From positions 1-48,640 of the IMG/VR virus record IMGVR_UViG_3300021417_000001: a stretch of 48,640 bases of DNA; one strand, given 5' to 3'. Source of the DNA: a virus. The notes beneath the pieces were generated by a model that did no database searches, was not told where the DNA came from, and saw nothing but the letters and a program-made list of their open reading frames with translations. This document shows, piece after piece, positions 28,883 through 37,441 of the stretch (positions within the stretch are counted from its first letter, which is position 1; every line of letters begins with the position of its first letter). A program made the position numbers and the translations under genes.

Positions 28883-29911
28883 ATGCGCGTTTATAACTCC
28901 CGCAATCCTTCCGGGGCGGATACCGGCATCGATATTCCTGATCGCATGCCGATTGCCTCTGAGGAGCAAAACAACTGGCTGCTCAATCGCCGCCGCCAGG
29001 TCGATGCTCACGAGCTGAACTTCCTCGGCAATGCCAGCCCGCTTCCCCGCGATGTGTGGGGTGAATGGGATCGTGAGGGCATCGAGGTCCAGCGTGAAGT
29101 GCTGGCCGTCTTTGGTGACCTTGCCGCCGCCGTGGGTACGCCGATGCCGATTGGCAAGCTGATCCACTACTTCCAGCAGATCAGTGACTCCGGCGAGGCG
29201 CACGTCTCTCTGGATGGCCGCTCGAAAGGCCGCACCGATCAGCAGGTCATCAGCTATCAGGGGACGCCGCTGCCGATCATCGACAGCCCGTTCTCCTATG
29301 GCTGGCGCCAGATGGAAGCTGCCCGCACCGAAGGCTATCAGCTGGATGCTGCAGGCCGTCGCAACGCTGACTTCAAGGTGGCGAAGAAGCTGGAGAGCAT
29401 TGCGCTCGTCGGTGACACTTCCATCGTGGTGGACGGCAAGCCGCTCTATGGCCTGACCACTCACCCGAAGCGCAACACGCGCTCGACCACAAATGACCTG
29501 AGCGCTTGCACGGGTCCTGAGTGGGCAGATGATGTGAACGCGACGATCAAGCTGTTGCATGCGGACAATTTCCGCGTTCCGGCGACCCTGTATGTCAACT
29601 GGGATGACTGGTTCTATGCCACCCAGACTGACTATTCCACGCAATACCCGAACAAGACCATTGCCCAGCGTATCCTGGAGAATGGCGGCGTTCGTGAGGT
29701 GATCCCGGCATCTGATGTGCCGGCGGATACCATCATTGCCGTGGTCAAGGATCGCCGCAGCATCCAGGTGCTGAACGGCATGCCGATGAACTCCCGCCAA
29801 CAGTTCCGGGCTAACCCGGAAGACGATTACAATTTCCTCGTCATGGCGGCGCAGGCTGTCGAGATCAAGTTCGACGCCGAAGACAATTGCGGCATCGCAC
29901 ACTCCTCGTAA
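28883..29911 (+). CDS. Major capsid protein
   Basis: 342 residues of the HK97-fold type (DUF2184/encapsulin-like). Blocks include EEQNNWLLNRRRQVDAHELN, GEWDREGIEVQREVLAVFGD, VISYQGTPLPIIDSPFSYGW (the P-I-I-D-S-P-F-S-Y family pattern) and NTRSTTNDLS, with a C-terminal DDYNFLVMAAQAVEIKFDA. Its place after the scaffold and decoration genes and its length are as expected. AAGGAG precedes the ATG. Confidence 0.88.
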   Translation: MRVYNSRNPSGADTGIDIPDRMPIASEEQNNWLLNRRRQVDAHELNFLGNASPLPRDVWGEWDREGIEVQREVLAVFGDLAAAVGTPMPIGKLIHYFQQISDSGEAHVSLDGRSKGRTDQQVISYQGTPLPIIDSPFSYGWRQMEAARTEGYQLDAAGRRNADFKVAKKLESIALVGDTSIVVDGKPLYGLTTHPKRNTRSTTNDLSACTGPEWADDVNATIKLLHADNFRVPATLYVNWDDWFYATQTDYSTQYPNKTIAQRILENGGVREVIPASDVPADTIIAVVKDRRSIQVLNGMPMNSRQQFRANPEDDYNFLVMAAQAVEIKFDAEDNCGIAHSS

Positions 29912-29967
29912 GTGAACCGGGCGGCGGGGCTCCGGCCTCGCCGCTTCTCCCCCAAGGAATCCACATC

Positions 29968-30441
29968 ATGCAATACGAAATCACTCAGCCCGGCGTCTAT
30001 GACAGCAAGGGCAAGCCCGTGAAGGTCGGCACTGTATTCGACATCAAGGGCGACACCGTTCCGGCATGGCTCGTGAACAAGGGCCGCCGCCTCGGTGGTG
30101 ACACCGAAGGCAAGACGCCGATCACAAATCCGAAGAAGGATGCGCGATCTGCCGAAGCGAAGGCGAAGGCTGAAGCCGAGGAAAAGGCTCGCCTCGAAGC
30201 CGAGGCCGAAGCGAAGGCGAAGGCTGAAAACACCAAACCTTCCGCACAGGAGCGCCAACAGCGCCTGCGCGAACTGGTTGGCGAGATGAAGCCTGAAGCC
30301 TTCACCGCTGACGGCTCGCCAGACGTCAAGGTGCTCAACGGCATGCTGAAAGATGGCGAAATGGCCTTCACCGCTGAAGAGCGTGACCAGCTGTGGCCGG
30401 GCATCAAAGGCGAGTTCACCCCGCCTGCCACCGGTAAGTAA
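29968..30441 (+). CDS. Head-region protein with charged helix, unknown role
   Basis: 157 residues from the ATG at 29968 (AGGA upstream). The N-terminal ~45 residues are a small beta domain (YEITQPGVYDSKGKPVKVGT, FDIKGDTVPAWLVNKGR) seen in phage head-tail region proteins. The middle (60-95) is an Ala/Lys/Glu repeat. The C-terminus (RLRELVGEMKPEAFTADGSP, DVKVLNGML) resembles a small SAP/HeH-like helical domain. Possibly a capsid-associated or connector protein. Confidence 0.6.
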   Translation: MQYEITQPGVYDSKGKPVKVGTVFDIKGDTVPAWLVNKGRRLGGDTEGKTPITNPKKDARSAEAKAKAEAEEKARLEAEAEAKAKAENTKPSAQERQQRLRELVGEMKPEAFTADGSPDVKVLNGMLKDGEMAFTAEERDQLWPGIKGEFTPPATGK

Positions 30442-30499
30442 ACAGATTGCCGCCCTGTCCATGATGGGGCGGCGCTCACCCCAGCCAGGATGATCAGAC

Positions 30500-30928
30500 A
30501 TGCCATACGGAACGCTGGCCGGTTTCCGGTCATACTGGACGGATCGCGGCAATAGCGCGCCAACGGATGCGGATGATGCAGACGCCAATGCCGCGCTCGT
30601 CCGCGCCTCCGATCACATCAAGTACAGGTATGTAGCCAACCTGATCAAAGGCTATGACGAAACCCTCGATGTGGTTGAGTACGCGACCTATGAGGCGGCG
30701 CTACTCGAACTCTCCACAGTGGGCTTCTTCTCCAAGACATACACGCCAGCCCAGCAGAAGGTGCTGACGGGCGTAGACAAGATCCGGTGGACTGTGACCG
30801 GCGACGCCAGCAACAAGTATGCGCAGGTGCCTGTGTCCACTCTCATCGAGGCAATGTTCGAGCCCTATGTGCGCGATCTGAATGACGCGCAGTTTCGGTT
30901 CATGTCGATTGGCCCGGGAACACTCTGA
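30500..30928 (+). CDS. Head-tail connector / adaptor (DnaT-like family)
   Basis: 142 residues. MPYGTLAGFRSYWTDRGN with ANAALVRASDHIKYRYVANL and YATYEAALLELSTVG is the pattern of the adaptor family often labelled DnaT-like ssDNA-binding protein, which in phages sits right after the capsid gene and docks on the portal. It overlaps the next gene by one base. Confidence 0.8.
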   Translation: MPYGTLAGFRSYWTDRGNSAPTDADDADANAALVRASDHIKYRYVANLIKGYDETLDVVEYATYEAALLELSTVGFFSKTYTPAQQKVLTGVDKIRWTVTGDASNKYAQVPVSTLIEAMFEPYVRDLNDAQFRFMSIGPGTL

Positions 30929-31353
30929 TGGCAGAGGATTGGGCCAGCATCGCCGCCGAGGTCGAAGACGCCATCCGCTCGGTATCGGACACCAGCCAGC
31001 CAAGCGGCTTTCCCGCCACCATCCGCAAGGCCGGGACAACCGCTGGGGCGAACCCATGGGATCCGGACACGGGCACGCCAACCTATCACACGGTCTGGAT
31101 TGTCGACGGGGATCGCGTCATCCGTGATGAGACGGGCACGCGCATCGAGCGCATTGAACGGACGCTGATGGTCTCGGCCACCGGCACCGCCATCGAAGAC
31201 GAAGACATGATCGCTGTGGGAATCGCCGCCGACGATGCGAGCGAAGCCACACAGTGGGAGACTATCAAGGAAGTCCGCCCCGTCGCGCCTGCTGGCGTGG
31301 TGGTTTACTACAGCTTGGTCATCGACGGTGCACCGGGCAAGCTCTCAACCTGA
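30928..31353 (+). CDS. Head closure / neck protein
   Basis: 141 residues. ASIAAEVEDAIRSVSDTSQP at the start, PDTGTPTYHTVWIVDGDRVI, RTLMVSATGTAIEDEDMIAV and EATQWETIKEVRPVAPAGVV: a beta-barrel-like neck protein of the type that follows the adaptor gene in siphoviruses. Identified mostly by position plus composition. It overlaps the adaptor gene by one base (TGATG). Confidence 0.72.
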   Translation: MAEDWASIAAEVEDAIRSVSDTSQPSGFPATIRKAGTTAGANPWDPDTGTPTYHTVWIVDGDRVIRDETGTRIERIERTLMVSATGTAIEDEDMIAVGIAADDASEATQWETIKEVRPVAPAGVVVYYSLVIDGAPGKLST

Positions 31354-31364
31354 AGGAAGCCCCC

Positions 31365-31604
31365 ATGAGTAACACAGAAAAGACAGTCGATAGCGCATCC
31401 GATGACCGGACAGCGAATAACGCAGTTCGCCATCAGTACCGCGTTCTCTCCGATGAAGAGAAGGCCAAGATGGTCGAGATCAAGGATGCGGGCGCCAAGA
31501 TGCTCAGCCTTATCGACAGCATGGGCGGTAGCCGTGAACTGTCCCTCGCCAAGACCAAGACCGAGGAAGCCGTCATGTGGGCGGTGAAGCACCTCACAGC
31601 GTAA
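31365..31604 (+). CDS. acb2: Acb2/Tad1-hairpin family protein, likely anti-CBASS
   Basis: 79 residues from the ATG at 31365. After a short flexible N-terminus come HQYRVLSDEEKAKMVEIKDA and GSRELSLAKTKTEEAVMWAV plus KHLT: an all-helical hairpin with the Acb2 pattern (H-x-Y-R-x-L-S, I-K-x-x-G, S-R-E-L-S-L-A-x-T-K-x-E-E-A-x-M-W). Acb2 proteins form hexamers that sequester cyclic di- and trinucleotides, silencing CBASS and related cyclic-nucleotide immunity. It sits between neck and minor head genes, a frequent location for such accessory genes, and would be made late. Family assignment is by eye. Confidence 0.82.
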   Translation: MSNTEKTVDSASDDRTANNAVRHQYRVLSDEEKAKMVEIKDAGAKMLSLIDSMGGSRELSLAKTKTEEAVMWAVKHLTA

Positions 31605-31615
31605 CGGAGACCCCC

Positions 31616-31843
31616 ATGAAATACACCGTTCAGAAAGCCAACCAGTTCTTCAAGGGCGACAAGCCAATCCCGGTCGGGGGCGAAATCGAGCTGGAGGACA
31701 ATGCGCTGACGCGAAAGTTCATCGAGCGCGGTCATGTGAAGGCGCCTGCCAGCGGCGGTATGGTCTCGGACAAGTCGGAGTATCGCCCCGGCGAGAATGC
31801 CTCTGAGTTCAAGATCACGAAACCAGAGTCAGACGCTGACTAG
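31616..31843 (+). CDS. Small hypothetical head-region protein
   Basis: 75 residues from the ATG at 31616 (CGGAGA upstream). Beta-rich: YTVQKANQFFKGDKPIPVGG, EIELEDNALTRKFIERGHVK, then a polar tail. The pattern resembles the N-terminal domain of the head-region protein at 29968 (short beta segment ending in a K/R-rich turn). Role unknown. It abuts the next gene without a gap. Confidence 0.6.
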   Translation: MKYTVQKANQFFKGDKPIPVGGEIELEDNALTRKFIERGHVKAPASGGMVSDKSEYRPGENASEFKITKPESDAD

Positions 31844-32845
31844 ATGCCCCGCAACATCCCGGATTTCGACCAGCTGACAGAGCTGTGGGAACCGCGCCTG
31901 CGCGCTGCCTTCCTCGAAAGCATCGACGGCGTGACAGACCGGGTGACGCTAAAGCAGATCACGGCCCTGCTCGAACGCGGGGACATTGAGGGCCTGCTTG
32001 ATTACCTCCGCATCAACCGGCTGAGCTTCCAAGGCTTCGAGATCGCCATGCGCGATATGTACGAGGCCGGAGGCATGCGGTTCGGCTCGTCACTCCCGAC
32101 ACTGGCGCAATTCGTGTTCGACGTCCGCAATCCGCAGGCTGAGGCGTGGATACGCGACAGGTCATCCAATCTTGTCACCGAGATCGTGGAGGATCAGCGC
32201 AACATGATCCGGGGCCATCTGGTCGAGGGCCTGGCACGGGGCGACAATCCCCGCACCACTGCAATCGAGTTGGTGGGGCGCATCGATCGAGCGACTGGCA
32301 AACGCTCTGGTGGGATTATCGGACTCACACAGCAGCAGGAAGCGTGGCAGCGCGCCTATGCCGTAGAGTTGGCCTCTGATGACCCAGCCATGCTCCGCAA
32401 GGCTCTGGGGCGCAAGCTGAGGGACAAACGTTTCGACCGCGCCATCCAGAAGGCCATCAGGACCGGCAAGCCCATTCCAGCCGAGACGCGCCGCAAGATG
32501 ACCCGCGCCTATCGCAATCGCATGCTGAAGTATCGGGCGGACGTCATCGCCAGGACCGAGACGTTGCAATCCCTCGCAGGATCTCAGTACGAGACTTATC
32601 GGCAGGCCATTGATGCCGGCGAACTTCGCGCCGATCAGGTCACCAAGATATGGAAGAGCGCTCGTGATGAGCGCGTCCGCTTCTCTCATGCTATCCTGCA
32701 CAACGACAAGGCGCCATTTGATCAGCCATTCATATCCCCGCTTGGCAATGCAATGCGCTTTCCCGGCGACCGCTCGCTGGGCGCAACCGCGGCTGATACG
32801 ATCCAGTGTCGCTGCACACTGAACTACCGGGTGGCATTCGAGTGA
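31844..32845 (+). CDS. Phage minor head protein (Mu F / SPP1 gp7 type)
   Basis: 333 residues. The C-terminal domain has the family pattern ADVIARTETLQSLAGSQYET, TKIWKSARDERVRFSHAILH, FPGDRSLGATAADTIQCRCT with conserved Arg, His and the final Cys pair. The N-terminal half is helical. Members attach inside the head near the portal and may be ejected with DNA. Here it lies after the connector genes rather than next to the portal. The ATG directly follows the previous stop. Confidence 0.88.
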   Translation: MPRNIPDFDQLTELWEPRLRAAFLESIDGVTDRVTLKQITALLERGDIEGLLDYLRINRLSFQGFEIAMRDMYEAGGMRFGSSLPTLAQFVFDVRNPQAEAWIRDRSSNLVTEIVEDQRNMIRGHLVEGLARGDNPRTTAIELVGRIDRATGKRSGGIIGLTQQQEAWQRAYAVELASDDPAMLRKALGRKLRDKRFDRAIQKAIRTGKPIPAETRRKMTRAYRNRMLKYRADVIARTETLQSLAGSQYETYRQAIDAGELRADQVTKIWKSARDERVRFSHAILHNDKAPFDQPFISPLGNAMRFPGDRSLGATAADTIQCRCTLNYRVAFE

Positions 32846-33276
32846 TGGGCAAGTTCGTTGATGCCGTTCTCGATTTCAACGACAAGGCGCTGGAGCGCGC
32901 TGATCTAGTGCTGAAATACGCAGCACAGGATCTATCGGAGGATGTGACGAAGCCGATCTATGAGGGCGGCCGCATGCGGGTGGATACCGGATTTCTGCGG
33001 GCGTCCTTTCGCGCAACATTGGACGTTCCGATCCTGACCGCAATCGAAAAGCCGGACGGGGAATATTTCGCCTTCGATAGCGCCGCCATTGGCCTGACGA
33101 TAAACCGGATGACCATGGGGCAGACGCTCTATTTGACGTTCACTGCCAATTATGCGCGCCACAGGGAGTATGGTGCCAGAGGGCAGGCGCCTGATGCGTT
33201 TGTGCGGACATACACGGCCGACTGGCAGGGATACGTCAATCGCGCTGCGGAACGTGTGAAGAAGATGGACCGTTAG
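32845..33276 (+). CDS. Tail completion protein, HK97 gp10-like
   Basis: 143 residues from the ATG at 32845 (TGATG). FVDAVLDFNDKALERADLVL, RVDTGFLRASFRATLDV, FTANYARHREYGARGQAPDA: the R-V-D-T-G-F-L-R and Y-A-x-x-x-E-Y-G blocks mark gp10-like proteins that join tail and neck. Confidence 0.84.
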   Translation: MGKFVDAVLDFNDKALERADLVLKYAAQDLSEDVTKPIYEGGRMRVDTGFLRASFRATLDVPILTAIEKPDGEYFAFDSAAIGLTINRMTMGQTLYLTFTANYARHREYGARGQAPDAFVRTYTADWQGYVNRAAERVKKMDR

Positions 33277-33448
33277 CGGTCTGGCCGTCTTCCGTCATTT
33301 CGAAGCCAAGGATCATATAGGCCAGCGTCATCCGCGCTGTCTGCAATGCCGTGTCGGCTGATGTCGATGCGCCCCGTTCCACTCCGAGAACATCATGCGC
33401 GGCCCTCAGGCGCCGCAGGGTTTCAGCACTATCCAGAGGGTCAGCCAT
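33236..33448 (-). CDS. Possible antisense small gene within the late operon
   Basis: 70 residues on the minus strand, filling the 170-bp gap between two rightward tail genes. Helical, with protein-like composition and G/C-ending codons (PLDSAETLRRLRAAHDVLGV, TALQTARMTLAYMILGFEMT). Its start codon is back to back with the start of the next rightward gene (ATG on both strands at 33446-33449), and its end overlaps the gp10-like gene by 41 bp. No ribosome site or promoter is evident. Confidence 0.4.
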   Translation of the reverse strand: MADPLDSAETLRRLRAAHDVLGVERGASTSADTALQTARMTLAYMILGFEMTEDGQTANGPSSSHVPQRD

Positions 33449-33872
33449 GGCAACCGATCACGAGGAATCGGTGAGAGCGGCTTTGTTCGGTCATCTCACG
33501 GCCCTGACTACGACACCGGCCACAGAGATTGCGTGGCCAAATAAAAGCTTCGACCCGGACACTTACCCATATCTTCGGGTGAATGTCATCCCGACCCGGC
33601 CCGGAATGATGACCGAGGACGGCACACGCAAGCCGCACCGGGGCATCCTCCAGGTCGATGTCGTGACCAAGAGAGGCGGCGGATATCCGTCCGGTCTGGT
33701 CGACCAGCTCTGCCAGCATTTCCGGCAGGGCGCTCAAATATTTGGCTCAGATGGGCGGTTCATCCACATCACCGAGCCGCCATACCCCACGGCCCCGTTC
33801 AACGACGAGACCGAAACAGTCGTGCCGGTGCAAGTCCGGTACACCTCCTCATCAACTGTCAGCTCATCGTAA
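33447..33872 (+). CDS. Tail terminator-like protein (DUF4128)
   Basis: 141 residues from the ATG at 33447. EESVRAALFGHLTALTTTPA, PNKSFDPDTYPYLRVNVIPT, RGILQVDVVTKRGGGYPSGL and GRFIHITEPPYPTAPFNDET are typical of DUF4128 tail terminator/joining proteins related in fold to lambda gpU. It caps the tail tube. Confidence 0.86.
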   Translation: MATDHEESVRAALFGHLTALTTTPATEIAWPNKSFDPDTYPYLRVNVIPTRPGMMTEDGTRKPHRGILQVDVVTKRGGGYPSGLVDQLCQHFRQGAQIFGSDGRFIHITEPPYPTAPFNDETETVVPVQVRYTSSSTVSSS

Positions 33873-33884
33873 AGGAGACATTCC

Positions 33885-34364
33885 ATGTCTGACGGACGTA
33901 CAAACATTGCTTCCAAGCTGTATATTTGCGCGACGCCGCAGGAAGGCAATCTGACCAAGACCGAATATGAGGCCCTGACCTGGGTTCTGATCACCGGCGT
34001 CGGCACCTGCGGAGAATTCGGCACCGACGAGAACATCAGCGAGTACCAGCTGGAAGACGGCAACACGCTGAAGGCCAAGGGCTTCATGAACATGAAGAAC
34101 GTCGATGTCGAGTTCGTGCCCGACTATGATGATGCCGGTCAGGATGCCCTGCGCGCCGCTGGCGACACCTACACCTCCTATGCGTTCAAGCGCGAGAAGA
34201 ATGACAAGCCTGATGCAGGCGGCACCAACTCGATCTTCTACGCCATTGGCAAGGTCAAGAAGGTCACGCCTGTGGACGGCACTGGTGATGACTTCATCCG
34301 CCACATGACGACGATTGCGCAGGAATATGCGCCAGTGTTCGTCGAGCCGGCTGCCGGCGCATAA
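33885..34364 (+). CDS. Major tail tube protein
   Basis: 159 residues. A beta-rich protein (TNIASKLYICATPQEGNLTK, LITGVGTCGEFGTDENISEY, VDVEFVPDYDDAGQDALRAA, SIFYAIGKVKKVTPVDG) located between the tail terminator and chaperone genes, as tail tube proteins are. AAGGAG precedes the ATG. Confidence 0.85.
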   Translation: MSDGRTNIASKLYICATPQEGNLTKTEYEALTWVLITGVGTCGEFGTDENISEYQLEDGNTLKAKGFMNMKNVDVEFVPDYDDAGQDALRAAGDTYTSYAFKREKNDKPDAGGTNSIFYAIGKVKKVTPVDGTGDDFIRHMTTIAQEYAPVFVEPAAGA

Positions 34365-34374
34365 GGGACAGGTC

Positions 34375-34767
34375 ATGGATATCTCAGGCATTGATCCCCA
34401 CACCTCTGTTCTGCACCTCAAGCTGCCGGGCTCGTCCGAAAAGATCGGGCTCGCGCTTGAGCTGCAGAGCCTCACCAGCGATGCTTGCCAGAAGGTGATC
34501 GAAGAGAACCAGGCTACCTATGCAGAGGCACGTGAAAAGCATGGCGAAATCCCCAAGGAAACCTACGAAGAAGGCGGGCTGAAGCTTTACGCCGCAACCA
34601 TCGTGGGATGGACATGGGAGAAGGATGCCAGCTGGGGCGGAGAGCAGCTGAAGTTTACCAAGGCCAACGTCATGAAGGTTTTGGGTAAGGACTTTATCCT
34701 GCGCCAGGTCACCGAAGCGGCGAATGAGCAGAAGCGTTTTTTCGCCAAGTTTGCGAAGGGCTCGTAA
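34375..34767 (+). CDS. Tail assembly chaperone G
   Basis: 130 residues from the ATG at 34375. It matches the lambda gpG-like pattern: SVLHLKLPGSSEKIGLALEL, then helical SLTSDACQKVIEENQ, and near its end KANVMKVLGKDFILRQVTEA. It coats the tape measure during tail assembly. Just before its stop (34765-34767) lies the slippery heptamer T-TTT-TTC, where a -1 shift extends the protein into the T frame. Confidence 0.87.
   Translation: MDISGIDPHTSVLHLKLPGSSEKIGLALELQSLTSDACQKVIEENQATYAEAREKHGEIPKETYEEGGLKLYAATIVGWTWEKDASWGGEQLKFTKANVMKVLGKDFILRQVTEAANEQKRFFAKFAKGS
34737..34743 (+). other. -1 ribosomal frameshift site for G/GT
   Basis: TTTTTTC in the zero frame reads CGT-TTT-TTC, an exact X-XXY-YYZ slippery heptamer. 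Slipping back one base continues at CGC (34743) in the frame of the downstream gene, with no stop before 35115. This gives a 247-residue GT fusion (123 residues of G plus 124 from the T frame). The conserved G/GT frameshift is a hallmark of long-tailed phages. Confidence 0.85.
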
Positions 34768-35117
34768 GGCACCTTCGCAACCGGGTCCGGTATCACACGC
34801 CGGGCTATGACGGTAAGACGCGCGCGACCATCCACCGGGAATTCAGCCAGCCGGTTCCGCATGTGGCCAAGCCGAAAGGCGGCGATCACCTGCTGAGCTG
34901 GTTTTATCAGCTGAGCGATACGCGGTCCTACTCGGACGGAATGCCCCAGCCGATCACATTCACCGAAATCGAGGCTTGGTCGCGACTGTCGCGGACACGC
35001 CTCAAACCTCACCACATCGAAGCGCTGACGATGCTGGACGCCGCCTATCGGTCGGAGATGGCAGAGGCGATCACCTATTCAAATGAACGTCGCAGACGGG
35101 AGCAAGGCAAGAAATGA
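34743..35117 (+). CDS. Tail assembly chaperone T region (expressed as GT by frameshift)
   Basis: 124 codons open from the slip point; the only internal start candidate is GTG at 34863 and it lacks a good ribosome site, so synthesis as a fusion with G is expected. Sequence blocks: RHLRNRVRYHTPGYDGKTRA, HLLSWFYQLSDTRSYSDG, MLDAAYRSEMAEAITYSNER. T domains bind the tube protein and bring it to the tape measure. ATGA overlap with the tape measure gene. Confidence 0.82.
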   Translation, partial: RQVCEGLVRHLRNRVRYHTPGYDGKTRATIHREFSQPVPHVAKPKGGDHLLSWFYQLSDTRSYSDGMPQPITFTEIEAWSRLSRTRLKPHHIEALTMLDAAYRSEMAEAITYSNERRRREQGKK

Positions 35118-37441
35118 CCGATATCGCCACGCTCGGAATTGCTGTTACCTCTGACGCCAAGGGTGCGGCTGCGGACCTCGACAAGCTTGCGGGATCCGCT
35201 GGCGCGGCCGAGGGAGCGACCGAAAGCCTTGCGGAGTCGGCAGGCCGAGCCGCAGCGGCTGAGGGAAATCTCGGCAGCAAGGCCAGCATGGCTTCCTCGG
35301 CCATGAACGCGAACACGACAGCGGTGAAGACGAACACAGCCGCCCTGCATGCGCAGGCCGCTGCCGCCCGTTCCGTTGCCGGCCGTCAGCAGCAGATGAT
35401 GTATCAGTCCAACGACATCTTCATGATGCTGGCATCAGGTCAGGCTGTGCACATGATCGCCATCCAGCAGGGTTCCCAGCTGGCGCAGGTCTATGCCGGG
35501 CCGGGTGGTCTGAACAATGCGTTCAAGGACTTCACGAAGCTGATGGGCGGCGTCATCCGCACGATGCTTCGCTTTGCCGGGCCGCTCACGTTTGTCACCG
35601 TGGTCGCGGGCAGTTTTTCTGTGGCTCTGCAGCAGCTCAATCGAGAGGCTGAAGAGACAGAAAAACTATTGGAGGATATGCGGAACCTCAGCGAAGATAA
35701 CGCTGACGCGCTGCAGGACACCGCTGAGAGTGCCCTGAAGGTGGACTTGGCCCGTATTGGCCGTGAGGCAGACAATAGCGTCACACCCATGCGGGAGTTC
35801 AAGCACGAATTGACCGGCGTTGCCGCTGCGTTGAATGACATCACGGTCGCGAACTTCATCAAGCAGACCGGCGAGATGATGAAGCAGATTCGCGACACCG
35901 AGGCGGCCATCGACAAGTTGGAGCAAAAGGCGCTGAGGGAAGCGCCGAGTGTCAGCTTCGCCTACGGCTCAACGGGCGGTCTCTCAAACCCAGGCACAAC
36001 CCAGCGCGGCCTCACGCCTGAAGAACAGGAGGCGCTCACCTACGCTCGAAATGAACTGATTGGCCTCGAGCGTCGCCTCAACAGCTTCGGCAATGTTCTG
36101 TCTCCAGAGCAGTCCAAGGACATTCTCAACGCTTTGACGAGGGGTGACGCGGTAGGTGCTGCTGAAAAATTCCGTGATGCCCTCAAAGGCGTCATGGAAG
36201 ACAGTAAGACAACGACCTCCGAACAGAACAAACAGGCCACCACCATGGAGCGTCTGGCCAAGCTCGCAGAGCGTCAGCGCGAGGCCATGGTGAAAGCCCG
36301 CGGTGATGAGGTCGAACTCATCAACTACCGCCGGGATCAGGAAATCAAGGCGATCAATGACGCTGCTACCGAGGCCATCGCGCAAGGCAACAGTCGCCAT
36401 CAGGTCGAGATGCTGCGCGATCAGGCCGCTGCCGATGCGAGAATGGCTGCTGAGCGCGAAATCGCCAACTTCCGGGAGCAGGAGCACGAACGTGCCATTG
36501 CCGCCCTGCAACGCGACTTTGACCGGCTCATGCGGGATATGGAACGCACTGTCTCGGACCGCCAGCGGGCGGCTCAGCGCGGGGCGGATTTCGACAGATC
36601 CCTGCAACCGGCCACCGAGGCGAACCAGCTGGAGTGGTGGCGTCAGGATGCGCAAGGCGAGGCAGCAAGCATCCGGGATCGGGAGCTTGAGCTCTACCGC
36701 GGCAACCAGGAAGAGCAGCTGCGCATCAAGCAGGAATTTCTTGACCGGGAAGCTGAGATCGAGCGCATAGCAGCGCTGGAACGCACCCGCATCCGAGAGC
36801 AGCAGTATGCGGACTCCACCGGTCTGGCCTCGTCCTTCTTCGACTCGCTTGGCCAGTTGGCGCAGAACTACACTGACGGCCAGTCAGATGCCGCAAAGAC
36901 GCTGTTCGCCATCAGCAAGGGGCTGAACCTCGCGCAGGTGACGATGAACGCCTTCACGGCCTATTCGACCGCATGGGCTGATCCGACGCTGACATACTTC
37001 CAGAAGGTGTTCACCAGCGTGCAGGCGATGACCAGCGTGCTGACAGCATTGGCCAGCCTGCGCAATGTCCAGCTGAGCGGCGCACGCGAAATGGGCGGGC
37101 CTGTCTATCAGGGCGGCACTTACCTCGTCGGTGAGCGCGGCCCGGAACTGTTCACGCCCGGATCGTCGGGGCAGATCACCTCGAATGCCAACCTGCAGAA
37201 GGCCATGGGCGGACCAGCCAATGACAATGGGACATCCGGCACACTCCGCCTGATCGTTCCAGAAGGATGGCAGGTTCAGATGGATGAACAGGCCAAGAGG
37301 TTGGTTCAGGTCGAGAAAGCCGCAGCAGATGCGCCAGAGCGCGCTGCCGGCGTCGTGGCTCGCGATATTGCTCAGGGCGGCGGAACCGTCTCAGGCGTCA
37401 TCGAAAGCAAGTATGGACTTAACCGGGCAGCGGGTGCGTAA
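35114..37441 (+). CDS. Tape measure protein
   Basis: 775 residues. Starts with the alternating pattern of tape measures (IATLGIAVTSDAKGAAADLD), then QQMMYQSNDIFMMLASGQAV, HMIAIQQGSQLAQVYAGPGG and a hydrophobic stretch (RTMLRFAGPLTFVTVVAGSF). A long coiled-coil middle (~370-550, Arg/Glu/Gln-rich) and a C-terminal region with AREMGGPVYQGGTYLVGERG and PELFTPGSSGQI complete the family pattern. It sets tail length and is ejected with DNA. It is the longest structural gene bar the tail-tip protein. Confidence 0.94.
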   Translation: MTDIATLGIAVTSDAKGAAADLDKLAGSAGAAEGATESLAESAGRAAAAEGNLGSKASMASSAMNANTTAVKTNTAALHAQAAAARSVAGRQQQMMYQSNDIFMMLASGQAVHMIAIQQGSQLAQVYAGPGGLNNAFKDFTKLMGGVIRTMLRFAGPLTFVTVVAGSFSVALQQLNREAEETEKLLEDMRNLSEDNADALQDTAESALKVDLARIGREADNSVTPMREFKHELTGVAAALNDITVANFIKQTGEMMKQIRDTEAAIDKLEQKALREAPSVSFAYGSTGGLSNPGTTQRGLTPEEQEALTYARNELIGLERRLNSFGNVLSPEQSKDILNALTRGDAVGAAEKFRDALKGVMEDSKTTTSEQNKQATTMERLAKLAERQREAMVKARGDEVELINYRRDQEIKAINDAATEAIAQGNSRHQVEMLRDQAAADARMAAEREIANFREQEHERAIAALQRDFDRLMRDMERTVSDRQRAAQRGADFDRSLQPATEANQLEWWRQDAQGEAASIRDRELELYRGNQEEQLRIKQEFLDREAEIERIAALERTRIREQQYADSTGLASSFFDSLGQLAQNYTDGQSDAAKTLFAISKGLNLAQVTMNAFTAYSTAWADPTLTYFQKVFTSVQAMTSVLTALASLRNVQLSGAREMGGPVYQGGTYLVGERGPELFTPGSSGQITSNANLQKAMGGPANDNGTSGTLRLIVPEGWQVQMDEQAKRLVQVEKAAADAPERAAGVVARDIAQGGGTVSGVIESKYGLNRAAGA

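Follow-up and report, generated by a model that had tools for sequence, protein, structure and literature searches.

In the window, the whole 48,640-nucleotide stretch of viral DNA that was analysed (IMG/VR record IMGVR_UViG_3300021417_000001), the open reading frame at 31365-31604 on the plus strand encodes a protein of 79 amino acids, MSNTEKTVDSASDDRTANNAVRHQYRVLSDEEKAKMVEIKDAGAKMLSLIDSMGGSRELSLAKTKTEEAVMWAVKHLTA. An earlier note, made from the sequence alone, had described this frame and its motifs, and all of them are present: H23-x-Y25-R-x-L-S, I39-K40-D-x-G43 and S56-R-E-L-S-L-A-x-T-K-x-E-E-A-x-M-W72. The note also placed the gene between neck and minor head genes, in agreement with the order found here: head-tail adaptor Ad1 (30500-30928), head closure Hc1, the 79-aa gene, a 76-aa ORF and a Mu-F-like head morphogenesis gene. 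For the 76-aa ORF directly 3' of the gene (31613-31843, MKYTVQKANQFFKGDKPIPVGGEIEL...), searches of Pfam, PHROGs and PADLOC gave no hit. The features of the locus are collected in the table.

Features of the putative sponge gene and its surroundings (window coordinates)
Feature	Position	Strand	Basis or remark
Head closure Hc1, upstream neighbour	30928..31353	+	phrog_161, E 1.7e-6
Shine-Dalgarno-like AAGGAAG	31353..31359	+	5 bases 5' of ATG; sequence read
Acb2-like cyclic-nucleotide sponge gene (putative)	31365..31604	+	79 aa; PF24729 E 1.6e-19, translation, fold
N-terminal motif VDSxSDxRTxNNxxRH, codons 8-23	31386..31433	+	conserved in clade, outside Pfam domain
Codon Y25	31437..31439	+	aligned with Acb2 Y11 and T4 Vs.4 Y8 (ligand stacking residue)
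Predicted long helix 1, residues 30-51	31452..31517	+	AlphaFold2 on alignment A1
Codon K40	31482..31484	+	aligned with Acb2 K26
Predicted long helix 2, residues 57-78	31533..31598	+	AlphaFold2 on alignment A1
Codon R57	31533..31535	+	aligned with Acb2 R67
Codon T64	31554..31556	+	aligned with T4 Vs.4 T68
Mu-F-like head morphogenesis protein, downstream neighbour	31844..32845	+	PF04233, phrog_3517

The HMM search against the Acb2/Tad1 hairpin family that the earlier note had suggested as a check gave a curated Pfam match far above the cut-off: PF24729 (Acb2_Tad1_hairpin) scored 70.2 bits against a threshold of 27, with residues 25-78 of the protein aligned to positions 2-57 of the 58-position profile, and the same profile matched 28 of 28 relatives. 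In PHROGs the protein matched solely families of unknown function, and searches of NCBIfam and PADLOC returned no match. The Pfam score, the occurrence of relatives in both viral contigs and prokaryotic genomes, and purifying selection on the protein (dN/dS about 0.03-0.26 in pairs whose dS could be measured) indicate that the motif pattern did not arise by chance. Because phmmer with the single sequence gave insufficient signal by itself in the PDB (Vs.4, E 0.35), a profile search of the PDB sequences was used, in which Acb2 homolog 43 (E 6e-4), Acb2 p26 (E 0.005) and Vs.4 (E 0.007) came first and Tad1 next. Direct identity to characterised Acb2 proteins is low, at 20-25%.

The AlphaFold2 monomer model, built on an alignment of 28 sequences (A1), is all-helical, with helices at residues 16-20, 30-51 and 57-78, and its two-helix hairpin is predicted with a pLDDT of 95-99. 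In a Foldseek search against the PDB, the best eight matches were all chains of Vs.4 from T4 or Acb2 from a Pseudomonas phage (probability 0.91-1.00), ranking above unrelated helical proteins; the E-values were 0.2 or more, a weakness attributable to the short chain. Over residues 1-20 the pLDDT is only about 50, which would fit a segment that becomes ordered only in an oligomer or with ligand bound. The combination that the earlier note had named as speaking against its family call, no family match together with a different fold, was thus examined, and a PF24729 match and a two-helix hairpin were found instead; with the published ligand-site positions also kept, as described below, the call stands. 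Judged by its sequence and predicted fold, the 79-aa protein is a member of the known Acb2 family and very probably a cyclic-nucleotide signal sponge.

Among the characterised proteins, T4 Vs.4/Acb2 (PDB 7UQ2) is the top fold match (probability 1.00) and has in common with the window protein the A-K-T-K-x-x-E-A-x-M-W-A segment and the Y8 and T68 positions, although identity is about 24% and the Vs.4 alignment shows no N-terminal motif. The Acb2 proteins of Pseudomonas phages (gp24/p26; PDB 8H2J, 8H2X, 8IXZ) likewise have the two-helix hairpin, the Y-R-x-L-S start, and a lysine and an arginine at the K26 and R67 positions, but they are only about 20-22% identical and about 92 aa long, whereas the window protein carries 14 extra residues before the key tyrosine, with a conserved motif, and its gene lies among the head-tail genes of a temperate phage, probably an alphaproteobacterial one. 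Acb2 homolog 43 (PDB 9PTQ), the top profile match, shares the second helix R-E-x-S-x-x-K-T-K-x-E-E-A but its alignment begins only midway through helix 1; no publication describing it was found in the literature searched.

The positions expected to contact ligand are among the most conserved in the protein. Acb2 K26 and R67 we take to be residues of the cyclic-dinucleotide and cyclic-trinucleotide sites, respectively. The residues of the dinucleotide site (Vs.4 Y8/Acb2 Y11 and Acb2 K26) are kept as Y25 and K40, and those of the second helix (Vs.4 T68 and Acb2 R67) as T64 and R57; across the 28 aligned relatives Y25, K40 and R57 do not vary, and conservation of T64 is at least 90%. Vs.4 Y8 was identified with chain position 9, on the assumption that the crystallised chain has one additional residue at its N terminus. 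In T4 Acb2, the Y8A variant is binding-deficient and T68M lowers binding (PMC12657230).

To relate the protein to host defence, we compared prokaryotic genomes carrying a relative with family-level samples of Rhizobiaceae, Rhodobacteraceae and Sphingomonadaceae, the family membership of the carriers being assigned from organism names. NucC, a CBASS nuclease activated by cA3, was found in 8 of 34 carriers and in 7 of 594 background genomes (Fisher p 1.6e-7). The match had an E-value below 1e-90 in seven of the eight NucC-bearing carriers; in all seven the strong NucC adjoins a CD-NTase, and at least four have the order HORMA-cyclase-NucC. The test is partly post hoc, as NucC was first noticed in three of the carrier genomes; without these three, the count is 5 of 31 carriers (p 1.3e-4; family-stratified p 0.028). 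The cleanest subset is Sphingomonadaceae, the sole family in which both genes were sought in all of the sampled genomes (200); there, NucC occurred in 1 of 6 carriers and 3 of 194 others (p 0.12). Rhizobiaceae showed no enrichment (0 of 10 carriers against 4 of 199). The association between NucC and the relatives is therefore suggestive, not proven. Across all CD-NTases (SMODS) the enrichment is modest, 8 of 34 carriers against 61 of 598 (p 0.024), and these counts are approximate because one genome, G002, matched in one search and not in another, a discrepancy showing that genome-scan counts depend somewhat on search set-up. A large class-level contrast (8 of 34 against 7 of 288) was set aside, its background being rich in small genomes, and the sole candidate for a CBASS operon and prophage on the same contig, G021, was dropped as the sizes of the two contigs disagree. 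The earlier note's suggestion that CBASS matters in this host is thus supported only indirectly, via the hosts of relatives.

According to a review (PMC12043709), the affinity of Acb2 for cA3 exceeds that for dinucleotides, and the protein inhibits NucC. Considering that NucC answers to cA3, and that Acb2 is reported to bind this signal and block the nuclease, cA3 is the prime candidate ligand, so that the co-occurrence with NucC yields a specific ligand prediction; conservation and host co-occurrence together point to cA3 and cyclic dinucleotides as candidate ligands. The main ligand of a sponge with the same fold could also lie outside CBASS, for example a cADPR isomer of Thoeris, as in Tad1, a signal of type III CRISPR systems or a decoy nucleotide of Panoptes. 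PF24729 covers Tad1 as well as Acb2, and the D-x-R-T-x-N-N motif, absent from the characterised Acb2 proteins as aligned, could alter specificity; since type III CRISPR systems signal through cA3 as well, some overlap with that pathway is possible. Tad1 has an N-terminal beta domain that helps form the gcADPR pocket, and this antiparallel beta-sheet domain is absent from the all-helical 79-aa model. Tad1 chains align over the hairpin only and rank below Acb2 in both the PDB profile search and Foldseek; with the protein from a Clostridium botulinum prophage (PDB 7UAV, 8SMD, 8KBF) the similarity is that of the C-terminal hairpin tip, S-R-E-x-x-x-A-x-T-x-x-E-E-A-x-M-W, and the beta-sheet domain described for Tad1 (PMC12043709) has no counterpart in the window protein. 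Sponge homologs do vary in their ligand spectra (PMC12043709), but with NucC CBASS enriched in the hosts of relatives we regard a main ligand outside CBASS as very unlikely. Of the earlier note's statement that such proteins disable CBASS and, in related forms, Thoeris, the Acb2-like part holds, while the link to Thoeris is unsupported because the Tad1 beta domain is missing.

The position of the gene between Hc1 and the Mu-F-like protein, inside the head-tail run, would also suit a small assembly protein or chaperone of the head-tail pathway, encoded where it is used and sharing the hairpin by chance. In keeping with this, the relative in Sinorhizobium phage Aussie lies between the head-to-tail adaptor and the stopper, and the upstream neighbour is a portal gene in about one-sixth of the relatives. 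However, the neighbours differ across relatives: in the SI2 record the gene lies 3' of apparent tail genes, in MW202738 it adjoins an exonuclease and recT, and elsewhere it is found next to terminase, scaffold, protease, primase, endolysin, DNA methyltransferase or ParB genes. Relatives directly 3' of portals follow portals from several families, the portal and terminase families next to relatives are unrelated, and only a few loci have the window's structural neighbours in common. A close relative of the window's head-tail region was sought among annotated phages and none was found. Because the neighbours vary in this way, and with the sponge's ligand-site positions so strongly conserved, a structural role was set aside as hardly credible. 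The gene is often but not always in structural regions and, given its many genomic locations, is an accessory gene that moves between phage types, not a fixed part of the virion. In the near-identical phage L002, DNA identity to window positions 29630-35583 is 97.8% up to about 31756 and 92% from 31825; such a shift in divergence a short way 3' of the gene suggests recombination there. That the protein is a decayed or inactive family member retained through linkage is extremely improbable, given the strong purifying selection, the invariant ligand-site positions and the intact ORF with its ribosome-binding site.

We consider it highly likely that the gene encodes an Acb2-type sponge, and infer that it acts as a hexamer that sequesters cyclic di- and trinucleotides while the phage grows lytically, with an anti-CBASS effect. 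The protomer, a short N-terminal helix followed by the two-helix hairpin, would assemble into a compact homohexamer, in which cyclic dinucleotides may be held between head-to-head protomers via Y25 and K40, while R57 at the trimer interfaces may bind cyclic trinucleotides, cA3 among them. The gene is probably transcribed late, and the sponge would be produced together with the late head-tail genes. The free signal would then fall below the level needed by the CBASS effector, for which the cA3-activated NucC is the best guess, and the proposed outcome of the lowered signal is that cell suicide is held off until virions have been completed. Reportedly, Acb2 acts when a lysogen is induced and not during maintenance (PMC12043709), which makes placement in the head-tail run sensible.

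Relatives of the protein are numerous, with at least 168 in viral contigs and 68 loci in prokaryotic genomes. Prophages with a member of the clade occur across many genera of Alphaproteobacteria, where the gene is usually left unannotated, and in phages of the annotated collection the gene is listed as hypothetical. Acb2 has been called relatively rare and confined to specific phage groups (2024 preprint, PMC11722364), whereas Acb2-like proteins were found here in well over a hundred viral contigs. In the N-terminal motif, D13, R15, N18, N19 and R22 are invariant in A1, and the motif is missing only from distant relatives (e.g. L142, L146, L148 and L149). A modest degree of added interest comes from how large this unannotated clade is and how widely its hosts range, from its conserved N-terminal motif and from the link to NucC. 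A more far-reaching proposal, which we regard as speculative and rather unlikely, is that the window protein represents a large, mostly alphaproteobacterial branch of Acb2 specialised against NucC-type CBASS signalling through cA3, in which D-x-R-T-x-N-N-x-x-R-H would contribute an additional, so far undescribed element to the ligand site or the hexamer, and the late placement would be timed to the triggering of CBASS by structural products.

Several relatives depart from the common architecture. At L054:4995-5720 the ORF runs past the hairpin to 242 aa and seems to include membrane segments and a tail resembling a holin; this is either a genuine fusion or the result of losing the stop that separates adjacent genes. 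An insertion in the inter-helix loop just before S-R-E was seen at L068:5001-5342 and L122:8001-8294 and in L128, L130, L132 and L136. A relative with 72% identity is found in HQ332136.1 ('Dunaliella viridis virus SI2'; L151), a record classed as Caudoviricetes with a green alga given as host; its true host is probably an associated bacterium.
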